Shown piece after piece: positions 3,095 through 38,420 of a DNA stretch of 64,000 nucleotides (the stretch's first letter is position 1; each line of letters begins with the position of its first letter). The DNA comes from Herbaspirillum sp. ST 5-3. GTDB lineage: Bacteria > Pseudomonadota > Gammaproteobacteria > Burkholderiales > Burkholderiaceae_D. A program made the translations under genes and the position numbers. The DNA lies in contig NZ_STGI01000002.1 of the NCBI RefSeq assembly GCF_004804275.1, positions 186,001-250,000 on the forward strand, given 5' to 3'. The notes under the pieces were generated by a model. The model saw only the letters and a list, made by a program, of their open reading frames with translations, did no database searches and was not told where the DNA came from.

Positions 3095-3526
3095 CTATCC
3101 CAGCGCTTTCAGTAACTGGTCGATCTCGTCCTGGTCCGCGCCTTTCGATATGTAGTTGTACAGGACCGCGATAATTGCACCTTCCCTGTCCGCTGGAATC
3201 TCGATCCCACGTTCGCGGGACCATTCCTTGAGCGTACGCACCACGAGCTGCATCAGCTCGGTATCCACCTTGGCCGTGCCCGCGACGATCGTGCCCACGA
3301 CTGGCGCCGCACTCTGGCGCGTGCCTTCGTCCGACTGCTCTTTCGGCAGGTATTTTTCGGGGATTTCGTAGAGACGACGCGTGCCACCTACACCTTTCTG
3401 TTCCTCGAAAGGCCACCCCTCACTAGCCGCCCTGGCAATGATCTTCCCTTTTGAAGTCGGCAGGCCAGGTAACTGCATCGCTGCAATTTCGGACGCCGAG
3501 TATCGATTTTTGTGCGGCACACTCAT
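3095..3526 (-). CDS. Mu c-type repressor
   Basis: The 143-aa protein is transcribed away from the early operon. Its N-terminal ~65 residues form a Mu-type DNA-binding domain (YSASEIAAMQLPGLPTSKGK and a downstream GVGGTRR motif). About 29 of 48 aligned positions match the N-terminus of the transposase encoded at 5124, as in Mu, where c and A compete for the same operators. The C-terminal part (about residues 85-143) is short and helical, possibly for oligomerisation. It should maintain lysogeny by binding the repeats at 3534-3685. No protease-like C-terminal domain is present. Confidence 0.85.
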   Translation of the reverse strand: MSVPHKNRYSASEIAAMQLPGLPTSKGKIIARAASEGWPFEEQKGVGGTRRLYEIPEKYLPKEQSDEGTRQSAAPVVGTIVAGTAKVDTELMQLVVRTLKEWSRERGIEIPADREGAIIAVLYNYISKGADQDEIDQLLKALG

Positions 3527-4094: not shown

Positions 4095-4580
4095 ATGACA
4101 ATGCGAAATAGGCGATGGAAGTCAGTCAGGCCGGCAAGCCTGTCCGAGGCAATGGAGCTGTGTGTGGAGTTTGCCACCGAGCACCGGCGCCCGATCAAGG
4201 TGCTGGCCGACCTGATGGGTGTCGAGCCCAAGACGCTCTACCGCTGGCTGTCCGACACGTCCATGCCGCTCAACAAGATCCGTCAGTTCGAGCACTTCTG
4301 CGGCGCATCCTTCATCAGCGAATACCTGTGCCTGGCGCACGGCGACAAGGTGGTCATCAGCATCCCGCTCGGCAAAAAGGCCGACGTGACCGACCTGGCC
4401 GAGGTCCAGTGCAGCTTCGGGCAGGCCATCGCACTGCTTGCCCGCTTTTACCAGAACGGCGAGGCGCTGGACGAGACTGTCAGCGCCCTGACCACCACGC
4501 TCACCCAGCTGGCGTACCAGCGCAGCAATGTCATCAAGGCCGCAGAGCCTGAACTTGGTCTTTTTAACGACTCACATTGA
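4095..4580 (+). CDS. Early phage regulator-like protein, HTH-like N-terminus
   Basis: The 161-aa protein has a helical N-terminal half with an HTH-like segment (IKVLADLMGVEPKTLYRWLS, about residues 35-54), suggesting DNA binding. The C-terminal half (about 85-150) is helical and hydrophobic and could mediate oligomerisation. It sits between ner and the transposase gene, where Mu-like phages carry variable early genes. ATG 4095 follows a GGAG at suitable distance; ATG 4101 is an alternative. No named family was recognised. Confidence 0.75.
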   Translation: MTMRNRRWKSVRPASLSEAMELCVEFATEHRRPIKVLADLMGVEPKTLYRWLSDTSMPLNKIRQFEHFCGASFISEYLCLAHGDKVVISIPLGKKADVTDLAEVQCSFGQAIALLARFYQNGEALDETVSALTTTLTQLAYQRSNVIKAAEPELGLFNDSH

Positions 4581-4589
4581 AGGGCAGGC

Positions 4590-4778
4590 ATGTTCCAGCA
4601 TTCAAGACAGAACGCGAATGACCTGCGCACACTGAGAGCAGTGCTCAGTGCGGCCTTACAAGATGGGGATGACTTCGTTGAATTTCGTGCGCGATTACAA
4701 ACAGCGCTTGTCTCCAAGACGGGAGATTCGAAGGAACCCGCCATGTTTTCTCAACAAACGGACCGTTCGGATGCATAA
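4590..4778 (+). CDS. Small early ORF (62 aa), uncertain
   Basis: The ORF follows the preceding gene by nine bases with AGGGCAGG near its ATG. It has a helical core (TLRAVLSAALQDGDDFVEFR) and a polar tail. It overlaps the opposite-strand gene at 4645-5025, and probably only one of the two is a main product. No family was recognised. Confidence 0.4.
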   Translation: MFQHSRQNANDLRTLRAVLSAALQDGDDFVEFRARLQTALVSKTGDSKEPAMFSQQTDRSDA

Positions 4779-5025
4779 GCTTTGCCAAGAAATCAAGCAT
4801 CAGCGAGTTGACGACTCGTCTTACCGGTGGGGTGGCATGTCCCCATCCATCAATCTCAGGATTCGTTGCGAGGCTGATCAAGAACAGTGCGGAATCCATT
4901 TCGGAATCTGCATCAGCAGGCGTCATAACTCCACCGCTATTGATCCATGCCTTCTTCATCAACAGTTCATACAACGCCCCTGCAGCTTTATCGCAGTTGA
5001 TTTCTTCGAACGCGTCTTTGTCCAT
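4645..5025 (-). CDS. Antisense gene in the early region, unknown function (126 aa)
   Basis: This reading frame runs against the early operon, just upstream of the transposase gene. The start at 5025 was chosen because AGGACA lies about eight bases upstream; a longer frame to 5109 exists but has no ribosome site. The protein looks globular, with mixed acidic and hydrophobic helices and two Trp-containing segments near the C-terminus, no signal peptide and no membrane span. Position and orientation suit a lysogenically expressed accessory gene (moron), but that is inference. No family was recognised. Confidence 0.5.
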   Translation of the reverse strand: MDKDAFEEINCDKAAGALYELLMKKAWINSGGVMTPADADSEMDSALFLISLATNPEIDGWGHATPPVRRVVNSLMLDFLAKLMHPNGPFVEKTWRVPSNLPSWRQALFVIAHEIQRSHPHLVRPH

Positions 5026-5123
5026 GAGGAGTGTCCTGTGAAAGTGAATGACATGCAGTTTGAGAGCCTGCCAGGTCATTTTACCGAAGCGGGGCACGCC
5101 CTCACCCAATCCGGAGGCTTGGC

Positions 5124-7481
5124 ATGAGCCAGGTAACCGTTAAAACCTACTACAGCGCGGCAGAACTGGCTGCCATGCGGCTGCCGATGCTGCCGACCAG
5201 TAAAGGCAAGGTGCTGGCCAAGGCCGAACGCGAAGCGTGGCCAAGCACTGAAGTTACGGGCATCGGCGGAAAGCGCCGCGAATACGCTCCACCGGCACCT
5301 GTCATGGTGGCCATCAAAGAATTTGTCGTTAAACGCCTACTTACAGGAGGGATGCATGAGAGTGAAGCTGTTATCGAAGGTGCTCATTGCCAAAACCCGC
5401 GCGCACATGCTGCGCAAGGGATACATGGTGAGAACGGAAAAAGGGCGCTCTCGCACGCCGAAATCGGTACGGGGACAGAAGATGGCCGCCAAAGTGGATG
5501 GCATGTCTCCTCTTTACCTGGCAATTCTCAACCGGCGCAGTCTGTTCAACACGGCATCACGCCTGCATCGCCGGGAAGGGTTCACGGGGCCGCTGAGCCT
5601 GTCAAGACTTCAATCGGTCAGGCGCGGGTACCTGCCGCTGCGCTGACTGACCGCCAGAGGCAGATCGCCGAGGCGCGCGCGGCCCTCCTGCGCGAGGTCG
5701 AGCGCATCGCCCAGGTCGTCGGCCGTGAGAAGGCGATCACCAAGGTCGTCATCATGGCGCAGGACGGCACGCTGCCCGAGCACCTGGCGCGCCTGGTTCC
5801 CGTAGCCAATGCGCGGTCCGGCACGGACGGCAAGCGCACGCTGACCCGGCGCACACTCTACCGCTGGTTTAACGCCTACCGGCCGGGCGACGTCCGCGCA
5901 GTCAATGCGCTGGCCCCAAAAGATCAACAGACGGCGGTTCGGATTCCCGCCTGGGCCCCCGACCTGCTTGCGTACTTTCAGGTGCCGCAAAACGTCTCAC
6001 TGGCCTGGGCGGTGGAGCAGATCGCCGGCAAGCATGGCATCGACCAGGACAAGCTGTACCACCGCGCGCGCCGCTTCCTGGACAAGATGGGCAACGTCGA
6101 GCGGCATGCCGGACGCATGGGCGCGCGGGAAATCAAGAACATCAAGCCGTTCGTGCGGCGCGACAGCGGCATGCTGTGGCCGGGCGAGGTGTACACGGCG
6201 GACGGCCATTCCTTCGATGCCGAAGTGGCGCATCCGGCGCACGGCAAGCCGTTCCGTCCCGAGATCACCACCGTGATCGATGTCGGCACGCGGCGCGCGG
6301 TCGGCTGGAGCGTGGACCTGGCAGAAAGCGGGCTGGCGGTACTGGACGCGCTGCGCCATGCATGCGAGGTCGGCGGCATTCCGACCACGTTCTATGTGGA
6401 CAACGGTTCCGGTTACAAGAATGCATTGATGAGCGCGCCTGGCGTTGGCATGGAAAGTCGGCTCCGCTTCACCATGACGCACAGCATTGCCTACAACTCG
6501 CAGGCGCGCGGCGTCATCGAGCGCGCCCATCAGACGATGTGGGTGCGGGCGGCCAAGGAATTGCCGACCTATATTGGCGCACCGATGGATGCGCAGGCCA
6601 AGCAGAAGATCCACAAGCTGACCCGCCGTGATATCGCGCTGGCCGGTCGCAGCAAGTACCTGATGCCGTTTAACGCTTTCGTTGCCTTCTGCGAAAGCAA
6701 GGTCGATGCGTACAACAACCGGCCGCATCGCAGCCTGCCGATGATGTTTGACCCGGCACTTGGCAAGAAGCGGCATATGTCGCCGAACGAGGCGTGGGCA
6801 CAGGGCGTTAAAGACGGCGCGCAGTTGGCTGTCGTCACGCAGGAAGAGGCACGCGAACTGTTCCGTCCCCAGCGTGAAGCGAAGGTTCTGCGTGGTGAAA
6901 TCCGCCTGTTCAACAACCTGTATTTCGCACATGAGCTGACCGAATACCACGGCGACGTGGTGCGCGTGGCCTATGACATCCACAACGGCGACATGGTGTG
7001 GGTGTACGACCAGCAGGGGCGCTTCATTTGCGAAGCCGGCTTCGAAGCCAACAAGCGCGCCTACTTCCCCGAGTCGTACCTCGACCGGAACGAACGCAAG
7101 CGCATCGAGGGCCAGCTACAGCGGATCGATCGCAAGCGGGAAGACGTCGTGCTCGCCGCGCAGAGAGGTGAGAAGTACATCAAGGCGCTGGAGGACAACC
7201 CCAGTCCAACTCTGGAGTTGATGGGCGCGCTGACCGCCATTGAGGAGGTTGTGCCGGCTGAGCCGATCATACCGGCCTCCAACGGGCGCCCGATCTTCAT
7301 GCTGGAGTCCGACCGCTACGAGTGGCTGATGCAGCACCGTGATGCATGGACCGACGGCGACCGGCAGTTTTTAACGCAGTTTGTTTCCGGCGATATCTAT
7401 GAAGGGCTGCGCGAGCGGTTTGAGGCGCTGGGCCTGGCCTGGAGCGGGTTCGACGGGAATGTTTTGAAGGTGGCTGTCTGA
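5124..7481 (+). CDS. Mu-type DDE transposase (MuA-like)
   Basis: The 785-aa protein joins prophage ends to target DNA during integration and replicative transposition. Residues 1-65 form the Mu DNA-binding domain shared with the repressor. Residues 72-170 are a low-complexity linker. Residues 174-350 carry the end-binding helical domains, including a wHTH near 240-340. The RNase H-like core shows the DDE triad at about D360 (YTADGH), D426 (YVDNGSG) and E465 (GVIERAHQ). The C-terminal part (about 580-785) contains a beta-barrel-like segment and a tail that should contact the MuB-like ATPase. GGAGG precedes the ATG. The linker overlaps an alternative ORF. Confidence 0.93.
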   Translation: MSQVTVKTYYSAAELAAMRLPMLPTSKGKVLAKAEREAWPSTEVTGIGGKRREYAPPAPVMVAIKEFVVKRLLTGGMHESEAVIEGAHCQNPRAHAAQGIHGENGKRALSHAEIGTGTEDGRQSGWHVSSLPGNSQPAQSVQHGITPASPGRVHGAAEPVKTSIGQARVPAAALTDRQRQIAEARAALLREVERIAQVVGREKAITKVVIMAQDGTLPEHLARLVPVANARSGTDGKRTLTRRTLYRWFNAYRPGDVRAVNALAPKDQQTAVRIPAWAPDLLAYFQVPQNVSLAWAVEQIAGKHGIDQDKLYHRARRFLDKMGNVERHAGRMGAREIKNIKPFVRRDSGMLWPGEVYTADGHSFDAEVAHPAHGKPFRPEITTVIDVGTRRAVGWSVDLAESGLAVLDALRHACEVGGIPTTFYVDNGSGYKNALMSAPGVGMESRLRFTMTHSIAYNSQARGVIERAHQTMWVRAAKELPTYIGAPMDAQAKQKIHKLTRRDIALAGRSKYLMPFNAFVAFCESKVDAYNNRPHRSLPMMFDPALGKKRHMSPNEAWAQGVKDGAQLAVVTQEEARELFRPQREAKVLRGEIRLFNNLYFAHELTEYHGDVVRVAYDIHNGDMVWVYDQQGRFICEAGFEANKRAYFPESYLDRNERKRIEGQLQRIDRKREDVVLAAQRGEKYIKALEDNPSPTLELMGALTAIEEVVPAEPIIPASNGRPIFMLESDRYEWLMQHRDAWTDGDRQFLTQFVSGDIYEGLRERFEALGLAWSGFDGNVLKVAV
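5356..5646 (+). CDS. Possible overprinted ORF inside the transposase gene (96 aa, basic)
   Basis: An out-of-frame ORF begins at ATG 5356 with AGGAGG at 5345-5350, the best ribosome site in the neighbourhood. It covers the transposase linker. The product is very basic (many Lys and Arg), with no Cys and no membrane span. Over this stretch third-position GC is clearly higher in the ORF's frame than in the transposase frame, whereas the rest of the transposase gene has very high third-position GC. That suggests real coding constraint on this frame. No homologue was recognised. Confidence 0.45.
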   Translation: MRVKLLSKVLIAKTRAHMLRKGYMVRTEKGRSRTPKSVRGQKMAAKVDGMSPLYLAILNRRSLFNTASRLHRREGFTGPLSLSRLQSVRRGYLPLR

Positions 7482-7545: not shown

Positions 7546-8280
7546 GTGAAAAAGGGATTTGTCCAAAACAGCAATTACGCGCGCTTCCTGCAGGCCGTCA
7601 AGGCGGTCGAGCTGCGTGGCGCGCGCGAGGCGTCGCTGATGCTGGTGACCGGCCCGGCCGGCCTCGGCAAGAGCGAGACGGTGGACCGCTTTGCGGTCGA
7701 CACCAACGCCGTCTACCTGCGCGCCAAGGAAACCTGGACCAAGCGCGGCCTGCTGGTCGAGATGGCGGACACGCTGCGCATCCAGACCAACACCACGAAC
7801 CACGACATGCAGGCGCGCATCATCGGCGCGGTCGGCGCGCGCCAGACGCCTATCATCATCGACGAGGCCGAATTCACCGTGCGTTCGAGCGCCAGCATCT
7901 TGGAATGTGTGCGCGACATCAGCGATCTGACGGAAACGCTGGTGGTGCTGGTCGGCATGGAAACCATGGAAACGCGCATTGCCCGCTATCCGCAGATTTC
8001 CAGCCGTATCGCCCAGGTGGTGCACTTCCAAGCCCTGACCGAACAGGATGTGCAGTTGGCGTGCAAGCAGTTGGCAGAAGTCGACATCGACGCCGACCTT
8101 GTACGCGAGCTGCACCGTCAGAGCGAAGGAAAGATGCGCCTGGTGATGAACGGCATTGCGACCATCGAGCGCGTGGCCAAGGCCAACAGCCTGGTGCGGG
8201 CGGCGGCGGATGCCTTCAAGGGGCTGGAGCTGTGCATCGAGTGGCAGGCGCGCCGGCCGCGCGCGGGAGCGACGCGATGA
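7546..8280 (+). CDS. AAA ATPase, MuB-like transposition target protein
   Basis: The 244-aa protein carries a Walker A motif GPAGLGKS at residues 36-43 and Walker B PIIIDEAE at about 102-108. Lid helices follow, rich in Arg and including SSRIAQVVHF as a sensor-like region. MuB-type ATPases coat target DNA, recruit the transposase and provide target immunity. Like B3-type versions it is shorter than Mu B (312 aa) and lacks a clear N-terminal HTH. The GTG/ATG region at 7546 follows GGGAGAG. The stop overlaps the next start by ATGA, indicating coupled translation. Confidence 0.88.
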   Translation: MKKGFVQNSNYARFLQAVKAVELRGAREASLMLVTGPAGLGKSETVDRFAVDTNAVYLRAKETWTKRGLLVEMADTLRIQTNTTNHDMQARIIGAVGARQTPIIIDEAEFTVRSSASILECVRDISDLTETLVVLVGMETMETRIARYPQISSRIAQVVHFQALTEQDVQLACKQLAEVDIDADLVRELHRQSEGKMRLVMNGIATIERVAKANSLVRAAADAFKGLELCIEWQARRPRAGATR

Positions 8281-19679: not shown

Positions 19680-20927
19680 GTGACCGTCGATATCGGCCTC
19701 AACAATCCGTTCGCCGAGCAGTTGGAGTTCTTCCGCAACAAGCTGGCGCTTCCGTCCGAACGATACGACGACATCCTGAAGGCGGCGCACGACCGCGCCT
19801 TCATCGTTGCCGGTGCGGCCAATGCCGACCTGGTGAATGACCTGCACCAGGCCATGCAGCGGCGCATCGAGGACGGCAAGGGACTGGAAGCGTTCCGCAA
19901 GGAATTCAAGGATGTCGTCCTCAAGCACGGCTGGGTCGGCTGGACCGGCGAAGGCAGCGCGGCCGGCCATGCCTGGCGCACGCGCGTCATCTACCAGACC
20001 AACATGGCCACCAGCTACGCGGCCGGGCGCTGGAAGCAGCTGACGAATCCGGCCTTGCTGTCAGTCCGGCCGTACTGGAAGTACCACCATGCGGACGGCG
20101 TGATGCATCCGCGTCCGCTGCACGTCTCCTGGGACGGCCTGGTCCTGCCCTGGGACCATCCGTTCTGGCTGACGCATTTCCCGCCGAATGGCTGGTTCTG
20201 TCATTGCTGGGTCACTGCGGTCGACCAGAAAGAGTATGACAAGGCCAAGGCAGAGGGACGCGCCACGCCGCCGCCCGGCTGGGATACCGCCGACCCGATC
20301 ACCGGAGCGCCGCCGGGCATCGACAAGGGGTTCGACTACGCACCGGGTGCGAGCGTCAGCAAGCCGCTCAAAGAGTTCATTGATGAAAAACTGATCAACC
20401 TGGACGCACCGGTCGGCGCATCCATGTATGAGGCGATGCGGCCGATCCTGCAGCAGGAGATGCAGGCCGCCTACCAGGCATTCCTGGGTGAGGTGCTGGC
20501 GGATCCGGTCAAGCGCGGCCGTGTGGCGATCGTCGGCGCGATCGCACCCGAGACGCTGGCGTGGCTGGAGGCGAACAAGGCCATTGTGCCGGTCACGGCC
20601 GAGATTGCGGTGCAGGATGCCCTCATCGTCGGCAGGAAAGCCATACGGCACCAGGAAGCCGGCGACGCGCTAACAGCCGATGATTGGGCGCGCCTGCCTG
20701 ACATCCTGGAGAAACCGGACCAGATCCTGTTCGACACGGTGCACGGCAAGCTGTTTTATGTTGCCTCGACGTCTGATCCGCAGCGCGATGCCAGGATCGC
20801 CGTGGAATTCGATTACCTGCTGAAAAAGAAAAAGGGCGAGACCAATCTATTGGTGTCGGCCTTCCGGGTGTCAAAAGACGCGCTCGCCGGATGGATCGTT
20901 GGCAAGCTGTATGAGGTGGTAATGTGA
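19680..20927 (+). CDS. Mu gpF-like minor head protein with extra C-terminal domain
   Basis: The first ~200 residues match the Mu F / SPP1 gp7 head morphogenesis domain: RTRVIYQTNMATSYAAGRW and the HPFWLTHFPPNGWFCHCW motif (about residues 160-180). Residues ~280-415 form a separate domain with ILEKPDQILFDTVHGKLFYV and a Lys-rich hairpin. It resembles, to my eye, the barnase/EndoU/RelE-like (PBECR-type) nuclease domains often fused to F. GTG 19680 starts two bases after the portal stop. Confidence 0.85.
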   Translation: MTVDIGLNNPFAEQLEFFRNKLALPSERYDDILKAAHDRAFIVAGAANADLVNDLHQAMQRRIEDGKGLEAFRKEFKDVVLKHGWVGWTGEGSAAGHAWRTRVIYQTNMATSYAAGRWKQLTNPALLSVRPYWKYHHADGVMHPRPLHVSWDGLVLPWDHPFWLTHFPPNGWFCHCWVTAVDQKEYDKAKAEGRATPPPGWDTADPITGAPPGIDKGFDYAPGASVSKPLKEFIDEKLINLDAPVGASMYEAMRPILQQEMQAAYQAFLGEVLADPVKRGRVAIVGAIAPETLAWLEANKAIVPVTAEIAVQDALIVGRKAIRHQEAGDALTADDWARLPDILEKPDQILFDTVHGKLFYVASTSDPQRDARIAVEFDYLLKKKKGETNLLVSAFRVSKDALAGWIVGKLYEVVM

Positions 20928-21047
20928 ACCGGCGGGAGGTCGGACGTTCCTCCATCCATGCAGGCCGCCAGGGGCGGCTTTCGAAGCCTGTGGACTCCGA
21001 GATTTCCACAGCTCGCCGGCTCACGATTCAGTATAGGGCAAAAAGCC

Positions 21048-21578
21048 ATGAACAAGGTAATTCAGGTCGACAACCAGGAAGTCAAGGAAGCGCTGGCCAA
21101 GCTGCGTGGCCGGATGGAAGACATGTCGCCGGTCCTGATGGCCATCGGCGAAGACATCATCGAGCGCATCAAGATGCGCTTCTCGTCCGGGGTCGGACCG
21201 GACGGCGCCAGGTGGAAGCCGAACGCACCATCGACCCTGATGCGATACATCCAGAGCAGGGGCGGTTTTTCCAAGAAGACCGGCAAGATCACCTCCAAGG
21301 GGCAGCAGCTGGCGATGGGCAAGCGCCCGCTGCAGGGCGAAACCGGCGATCTCGCCCGCCAGTTCAGCAGCGTGGTCGTTGGCGGAACCTCGCTGCTCGT
21401 GAGTTCGACGATGATTTACGCGGCCATGCAGCACTTCGGCGGCACCAAGGCACAGTTCCCGAACCTGTGGGGGGATATCCCGGCGCGGCCGTTCTTCCCG
21501 ATCACGGCCAGCGGCGAGCTGTATCCGAACGAAGCCGAGGCGATCGTCGATCGCATCCGTCAATACCTGGAGGATTGA
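21048..21578 (+). CDS. Phage virion morphogenesis protein (Mu gpG-like)
   Basis: The 176-aa product starts at ATG 21048. It shows the gpG pattern: helical N-terminus (GEDIIERIKMRFSSGVGPDGARW), a basic loop, then GDLARQFSSVVVGG strands and RPFFP near the C-terminus. This family acts in tail completion or head-tail joining. An in-frame start 90 bases upstream exists but lacks a ribosome site and adds no conserved sequence. Confidence 0.85.
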   Translation: MNKVIQVDNQEVKEALAKLRGRMEDMSPVLMAIGEDIIERIKMRFSSGVGPDGARWKPNAPSTLMRYIQSRGGFSKKTGKITSKGQQLAMGKRPLQGETGDLARQFSSVVVGGTSLLVSSTMIYAAMQHFGGTKAQFPNLWGDIPARPFFPITASGELYPNEAEAIVDRIRQYLED

Positions 21579-21815
21579 CCGGAAAATGTCCGATTTGCTT
21601 TTTCCGCGTTTGGGCGATTTAATTGGAGGTGGGCAGCACATTCCCGCACGGTTCCTGCAGCGAAAGTTTTTAACGCTGATTTAACGGCCTTGCCGGCGCT
21701 TCCCGGCCTGCTTGCCGCCTGTCAATTTCTCTTTCCTCCCGGCTTTCCCATTTCTGGCTATCAAAATGCCTGCTGACAACTGTCAGTAGTTTCTCGCCGC
21801 GCGCGCGCCGGCACC
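21579..21815. other. Intergenic region between gpG and protease genes
   Basis: About 237 bases hold no gene. Two TTAACG motif copies lie 11 bases apart (21670 and 21681), and a perfect 14-bp palindrome CTGACAACTGTCAG spans 21773-21786, about 30 bases before the protease start. The spot could hold a late promoter or processing site. Confidence 0.55.
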
Positions 21816-37619: not shown

Positions 37620-37918
37620 CCATGAGCACACCGATCATCATTACCAGCCTGCCGGGACCAACAAACGATACGGCTGTTCCTCGGAGCGTCACGATGCGGC
37701 AAGCCCGGCGGGCTCTGTTTGCTGCGGGTCTTTACGACAGCGTCGATGCAGCCATTGCGGCCATTGAGGATCCGTCGACGCGCAAGGCTGCGCAAATTGA
37801 ATGGGAATACTCGCAAGAGGTGCATCGAGATAAGGATCTGGTGCAGATGCTCGCGCCTGCTCTTGGTCTTGACGATGCAGCTCTGGATCAGTTGTTTATC
37901 ACTGCCTCGAGGCTCTGA
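37616..37918 (+). CDS. Small tail-associated protein, possible fibre chaperone (100 aa)
   Basis: The ORF overlaps the spike stop (ATGA). The core (RQARRALFAAGLYDSVDAAIAAIEDP) is a helical domain seen downstream of fibre genes in many Mu-like and other phages. A role in fibre assembly is inferred from position only. Confidence 0.65.
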   Translation: MTMSTPIIITSLPGPTNDTAVPRSVTMRQARRALFAAGLYDSVDAAIAAIEDPSTRKAAQIEWEYSQEVHRDKDLVQMLAPALGLDDAALDQLFITASRL

Positions 37919-37919
37919 A

Positions 37920-38420
37920 ATGAAGATTGCCTTCTACAAGGGCCGCACGCGGCTTTTCAATCGCTTCGTCAGCTGGTGGACCAGCGGACCATATTCGCAC
38001 GTGGAAGCGGTTTTTGACGGCTTCCAAAGCTTGGATGCGCCAGTCTTATGTGCGTCGTCCTCATTCATGGACGGTGGTGTACGGATGAAAATGATCGAAC
38101 TCACGCCGGCTCATTGGGACATTCTCGATATCCCCGCCATCGACAGCACCCAGGTGTGCGAGTGGTTTCATAAGCATGTCGGGTGTCGCTATGACCTGGT
38201 CGGTTTGCTATCGACTTCGTGCCCGATCAAGCAGGATCGGGACCGCTTCTTCTGCAACGAAGCGATCGGAACGGCGAGCGGCCTGCGCGATGCCTGGCGC
38301 TTTAACCCGAACAGCTTTGCCCGAATCTGTGAGCTGCTTGGCGGTGTATGGGTCCAGGGCGGTCCGAACGGCGAATCCCATGCGTGCCTGGCGTCGGCAC
38401 GTTTGGCCGGAACACATTAG
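37920..38420 (+). CDS. Permuted NlpC/P60-like (YiiX-type) cysteine peptidase or amidase
   Basis: The 166-aa protein starts at ATG 37920, just after the preceding stop. An early His in GPYSHVEAVF and a later Cys in RFFCNEAIG (the usual C-[SN]-E of this fold) match the permuted papain-like order. Many tailed phages carry such an enzyme at the tail tip, where it may cut peptidoglycan on entry. No signal peptide is present. It is the last gene of the tail operon. Confidence 0.75.
   Translation: MKIAFYKGRTRLFNRFVSWWTSGPYSHVEAVFDGFQSLDAPVLCASSSFMDGGVRMKMIELTPAHWDILDIPAIDSTQVCEWFHKHVGCRYDLVGLLSTSCPIKQDRDRFFCNEAIGTASGLRDAWRFNPNSFARICELLGGVWVQGGPNGESHACLASARLAGTH

Follow-up and report, generated by a model that had tools for sequence, protein, structure and literature searches.

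Genes encoded within or across other genes are known from several systems that resemble the locus described here. In phage lambda, the Rz/Rz1 pair includes a small +1-frame gene that lies wholly inside another phage gene and is often left unannotated, as is the case here (PMC6139136). Rz1 is an outer-membrane lipoprotein and the lysis partner of Rz, whereas here the outer gene encodes a transposase and no partner of the inner protein is known; neither of its two versions (window and viral contig L041, see below) contains a cysteine, which sets it apart from Rz1-type o-spanin lipoproteins. The movement protein of apple stem grooving virus is encoded by an overlapping gene across the linker between two polyprotein domains, again as here, and divergence is much faster in the linker frame than in the protein that overlaps it (PMC8227390). 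Unlike our phage, this is an RNA plant virus with another genome strategy, and the likeness is one of description only. The B3-like transposable phage Fc02 has small overlapping genes in a Mu-like genome (olg1, olg2 and gene 10, with olg2 in the +1 frame), and olg1 and gene 10 function in superinfection exclusion; in contrast to the present case they occupy the repressor/ner region and not the inside of A, and they are likened by description, the sequences being unaligned (PMC9936078). The outer gene itself has a counterpart in phage Mu. The linker between domains I-alpha and I-beta of the MuA transposase (amino acids 65-89) accepts insertions of five residues very readily, and with many of them activity increases; the available text describes no gene embedded in it (PMC3362531). 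For the Burkholderia transposable phage KS10, the one passage that deals with ORF overlap is about a frameshift in a tail gene (PMC2628397). Among the matches listed in a literature search from which most subscription journals fell outside, no title or abstract opening mentioned a Mu-type A gene with another gene nested inside it.

The window, by which we mean the whole 64,000-nt stretch of DNA that was analysed, contains a Mu-like prophage. The IMG/VR element L039 includes an 8,854-base stretch identical to the window, starting at 2625, and from the stated size of this element (38,992 bases) the prophage would span 2625-41616. Its gene content includes a CII-like regulator, transposase A, ATPase B, terminase, portal and tape measure. 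The A gene (5124-7481, + strand) encodes 785 amino acids and is of Mu A type: it matches phrog_310 'transposase' at E 9.8e-153, with the profile spanning residues 118-769 (end-binding domain, DDE core and C-terminal domain), and Pfam Mu-transpos_C above cut-off at E 1.7e-21. The Pfam rve match lies below its curated cut-off (27.7 versus 32.6 bits), and HTH_Tnp_Mu_1, at residues 117-211, just under its own (22.9 versus 23.3 bits). A is preceded by the CII-like early regulator (4095-4580, +; phrog_101, E 3e-17) and followed on its 3' side by the transposition ATPase B (7546-8280, +; AAA_22 and TniB; phrog_296 'DNA transposition protein', E 4.3e-44). Between the regulator and A, a minus-strand gene (4645-5109; phrog_22093, E 2.3e-23) runs against the direction of the early operon and is overlapped by a + strand ORF at 4648-5127. 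The late region holds a gene of an enoyl-CoA hydratase-like moron family (37719-38420, +; phrog_1128, E 1.1e-33). The N-terminal domain of the transposase (5124-5342, +) recurs in an early gene on the opposite strand (3095-3526, -) that passes HTH_Tnp_Mu_1; residues about 5-59 of A, the putative I-alpha-like region, align with its product at 55-59% over about 50 residues. The Mu repressor and Mu A likewise have an N-terminal domain in common.

Within A, the first-pass annotation had described a 96-codon basic ORF in another frame, and we recovered it in the +1 frame at 5356-5646 (+), with ATG at 5356-5358 and a TGA stop at 5644-5646. Its product has 24 lysines and arginines against 3 aspartates and glutamates, a pI of 12.0 and a mass of 11 kDa. 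The Shine-Dalgarno-like AGGAGG reported ahead of the ATG is present at 5345-5350 (+), at a spacing of five nucleotides (GATGC) and not six. We consider it highly likely, from the sequence comparisons presented below, that this ORF is a genuine overlapping gene, internally initiated on the A mRNA and encoding a small basic protein within the A linker. The start region of the ORF is weakly folded (-9.4 kcal/mol; 199 of 200 shuffles fold at least as well), but such looseness is ordinary once GC content is considered, 186 of 973 windows being looser still, and it is not seen in L041 (134 of 200 shuffles), so that we left it out of the evidence. A promoter inside or just before A was dropped as a candidate, since no sigma-70-like site was found in 4900-5900.

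Among the A genes fetched, that of viral contig L041 encodes a protein 60% identical to the A protein of the window, and it has a +1-frame ORF at the same place (L041:1936-2208, 90 codons). The two hidden proteins are 43% identical over 90 residues (E 9e-18), that is, the inner ORF is conserved as a protein in an independent relative, and both frames are open in two divergent phages. In L041 a stop codon lies in the hidden frame 9 nt 5' of the ATG, and translation of that frame must therefore start at or adjacent to this ATG; the Shine-Dalgarno sequence there looks weak (AGGG). In the window the hidden frame is open further 5' than ATG 5356, with a TTG at 5323 and an open frame of 169 codons.

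The ORF had been placed across the linker of the transposase, a placement that agrees with the structure model. A was modelled from four sequences, at a mean pLDDT of only 44; between helices 58-73 and 176-199 this model shows a stretch without secondary structure, residues 74-175, where pLDDT is mostly 25-32. The hidden ORF corresponds to A residues 78-174 and covers this structureless stretch almost exactly; in the same low-confidence model, the A-frame linker through the hidden gene (5343-5642, +; residues about 74-173) is without secondary structure. Of 13 A proteins compared, the window and L041 have the start of the transposase core at offsets of 173 and 175, and the remaining 11 have it at 89-126. 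A genes that lack the insert are uninterrupted; counted from residue 74, their linkers measure roughly 15-50 residues. The comparison of 13 omits as duplicates L042, whose match values equal those of L043, and L039 and L054, which belong to the window's own element, as well as the more distant L004-L007, L037, L038, L047-L049 and L060-L066; L055-L059 were counted from the open frame and not from a known start, so that any error would make their linkers seem too long. The transposase would tolerate the hidden gene because it lies in a flexible linker between the I-alpha-like and I-beta-like domains. Given the tolerance of the corresponding MuA linker, the extra residues should cost the transposase little, although the MuA insertions were far shorter than the extra linker here.

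Codon usage distinguished the two frames over the same bases. The reversal of third-position GC noted in the first pass is real: at codon positions 1/2/3 the GC fraction is 0.57/0.49/0.70 in the hidden frame and 0.71/0.57/0.49 in the A frame of the same stretch, compared with 0.67/0.43/0.82 in the rest of A. Scored against the phage's own codon preference, the hidden ORF reached a z of 3.4 and the A linker -0.6; in L041, scored against its own gene set, the values were 2.8 and -0.3. In-frame gene windows of equal length averaged 4.1, and the three chance ORFs in A gave 0.3, 0.0 and -0.3. In a control of 162 +1 windows, four exceeded 3.6, all of them within 20924-21622, and +1 windows outside this region and the hidden ORF did not exceed 2.8. 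At 20924-21622 (+) the longest ORF is in the wrong frame by codon usage, with the coding signal in the +1 frame from about 21020; this one wrongly framed ORF is contained in the codon reference set as a small contamination. The codon evidence for the hidden frame is largely independent of L041.

A search of the hidden product against phage sequences, as the first-pass annotation had proposed, found L041 among viral contigs and nothing in PHROGs; NCBIfam, PADLOC and PDB sequences gave nothing either. By tblastn at E up to 1, there was no match in phages with both versions of the protein or in plasmids with the window version. Viral contigs scanned with the hidden protein or motif returned just the window's own element and L041, and in the loci of A relatives, taken from viral contigs scanned with A, the hidden protein was again present in these two only (L067-L071 are other cuts of viral contigs already covered). 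A scan of genome contigs with A gave three loci, none with the hidden ORF. In whole genomes (294 of the family, 349 of the order and 274 of the class, in partly overlapping sets), the only strong match was in the window's own genome. Weak matches occurred in 15 other genomes among the 294 of the family at E 0.017-0.099, and at a second place in the own genome at 0.1. In the order set, L052 and L053 matched at E 0.004-0.006, neither with an A match; L053 aligned over 30 residues at E 6e-4 in a small locus set, and no Mu-like gene was recognised in its sequence. In the class set, L072 matched at E 9e-4, with no Mu-like context recognised in its sequence. For P0002, the sole Pfam hit was to RuvB_C and fell below cut-off (E 0.022). 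Beyond the linkers of A genes, no match from these searches was a convincing homologue. Structure prediction for the hidden protein gave a poor model (pLDDT 66, pTM 0.36), largely helical at low confidence, whose best Foldseek match in the PDB had an E of 1.2; with such a model and no better fold match, nucleic-acid binding is proposed from the charge of the protein.

The suggestion that an originally separate gene was captured by fusion of two ORFs is not borne out by the relatives. The A genes of relatives without the insert are already continuous, so that fusion fits less well than a linker that was present beforehand and then took in a gene or expanded. Stop codons in the +1 frame of homologues had been named as the observation that would speak against the gene. 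They are found in the +1 frame of the linker in 7 of 7 insert-free A genes examined, and the L041 ORF is open over its full length; since the seven genes with stops lack the insert altogether, this comparison does not decide. In a tree of the A core, the window and the insert-free L040 are sisters (support 0.98) with L041 outside, whereas in a tree of the N-terminal domain (about 75 residues) the window groups with L043 (0.94) and L041 with L040 (0.82). This conflict suggests recombination near the linker. The insert follows neither tree, and losses or recombination must therefore be invoked. From the codon usage of the ORF and its match to the long linker, we infer that a ready-made gene was inserted. 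A less probable origin, though one that deserves to be kept in mind, is de novo overprinting of a real gene on an expanded linker; it concerns the origin only and is compatible with the gene being genuine. It would account for the lack of a convincing homologue outside A linkers, since overprinted viral proteins usually have no homologues (PMC8227390). By a published criterion, however, the frame with the codon usage of the phage is the older one, and here this is the hidden frame and not the A frame (PMC8227390); the ORF and the long linker also have almost the same extent.

Length and ribosome site alone are unconvincing as signs of a gene. A contains four same-strand off-frame ATG ORFs of at least 60 codons, the hidden ORF among them; the other three have 82, 89 and 123 codons and none is preceded by AGGAGG-N4-9-ATG, a pattern that is itself not rare in the window (4 occurrences versus 2.3 expected). 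With a longer chance ORF in the same gene, it is conceivable that the +1 frame of a GC-rich, low-complexity linker merely happens to be open and that the AGGAGG is a coincidence. We compared the window with L041, and all selection tests concern this one pair of sequences. In the first null model, in which selection acts on A only, codons were resampled in 20,000 runs while the two A proteins and the A flanks' codon identity stayed fixed. Hidden-frame scores in these runs averaged 52 (sd 17) and never exceeded 144, against an observed 168; in 52 runs both hidden frames remained open. In the reverse model, also with 20,000 runs, the hidden proteins were fixed and the A-frame score was tested; when codons followed the usage of A, 410 runs reached the observed value of 89, and when they followed that of the hidden ORFs, 5,368 did. 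Depending on the codon model, the A frame was open in both phages in 20 or 877 runs. The conserved L041 homologue, the result of 0/20,000 in each of three tests (the first null model and the two analyses described next) and the codon usage of the hidden frame together make a chance ORF very improbable.

Conservation at the level of DNA or RNA, for example of a binding site, a transpositional enhancer or an RNA element, is equally improbable as the source of the signal. When the first null model was slid along A against L041, the +1 frame peaked over the linker (z 6.0 and 7.5), fell to 3.2 in the following window, which still overlaps the linker, and stayed at or below 1.7 everywhere else. The third (+2) frame was also raised, at 5.7 and 2.8 over the linker and 3.6 at residues 481-570; against the insert-free L040 the largest values were 2.6 (+1) and 2.5 (+2). 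The rise in the third frame, together with identical nucleotide runs of 11 and 13 nt common to the window and L041, speaks for a conserved nucleic-acid element. The rise also indicates that the first null model is generous and registers general nucleotide conservation, and we therefore relied upon a third model in which the observed nucleotide mismatches were kept but redistributed, that is, nucleotide identity was fixed. Here the hidden frame alone stood out, with a z of 4.61 (0/20,000) against 0.42 for the A frame and 0.36 for the third frame. On an independent MAFFT nucleotide alignment the values were 4.24 (0/20,000), 0.16 and 0.37. Conservation in this pair of sequences is thus specific to the inner frame, and by either alignment the A-frame residues in the overlap are conserved no more than expected. 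The codon adaptation of the hidden frame also argues against a nucleic-acid element, and an RNA element was dropped because Rfam gave no match at E up to 1 in 4900-6000. In codons of the A frame, third-position differences are fewer in the linker than in the flanks (35/89 versus 114/191, p 0.002) and first-position differences more numerous (43/89 versus 58/191, p 0.005), where the flanks are A residues 1-72 and 175-300. Being both conserved and codon-adapted, the hidden frame is probably the primary one over the overlap. The proposal of the first-pass annotation that A also codes for a second protein is thus well supported by the L041 homologue, by frame-specific conservation and by codon usage.

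Slightly less probable still is that the AGGAGG serves an internal start of A at Met77, giving a transposase without its N-terminal domain, with the hidden ORF as a passive by-product. An A-frame ATG does lie directly 3' of the same AGGAGG (5352-5354), and MuA without domain I-alpha is still active or more active (PMC3362531). The spacing to this ATG is 1 nt, L041 has no A-frame ATG there (Ile-Ser-His), and such a start would leave the conservation of the hidden frame unexplained. A Shine-Dalgarno spacing of 1 nt is generally too short for initiation. In L041, the stop leaves no room for ribosomes to shift out of the A frame into the hidden frame, except within three codons of the ATG, and two compensating frameshifts in A were rejected since the hidden ORFs stop before the core and conservation is found in the hidden frame only.

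A genuine overlapping gene at 5356-5646 would be expressed from the A mRNA by its own initiation, at ATG 5356 with the Shine-Dalgarno sequence, in the +1 frame. Its 11-kDa, strongly basic and probably mostly helical product (as predicted) would most likely be made during early lytic expression and probably binds nucleic acid; its target could be transposition, the expression of A or the host. Across the overlap, the A frame would need only to remain open.

To judge by the sequence data, the hidden ORF is very probably a real gene, and one that ordinary annotation could overlook. More tentatively, and with the balance of probability against it, the I-alpha/I-beta linker of Mu-type transposases may be a docking site for accessory genes that move between phages by linker recombination. 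A small ready-made gene inserted there would be read out of frame by the transposase as harmless linker, and its insertion would give automatic co-expression with A. If the hidden gene is real, it represents a protein family, encoded inside a much-studied class of transposases, of a kind that annotation would tend to miss, and across the overlap the inner frame, and not the large outer gene, would be the conserved one. Unusually long interdomain linkers that coincide with a codon-adapted off-frame ORF would then provide a rule by which to search for such genes.
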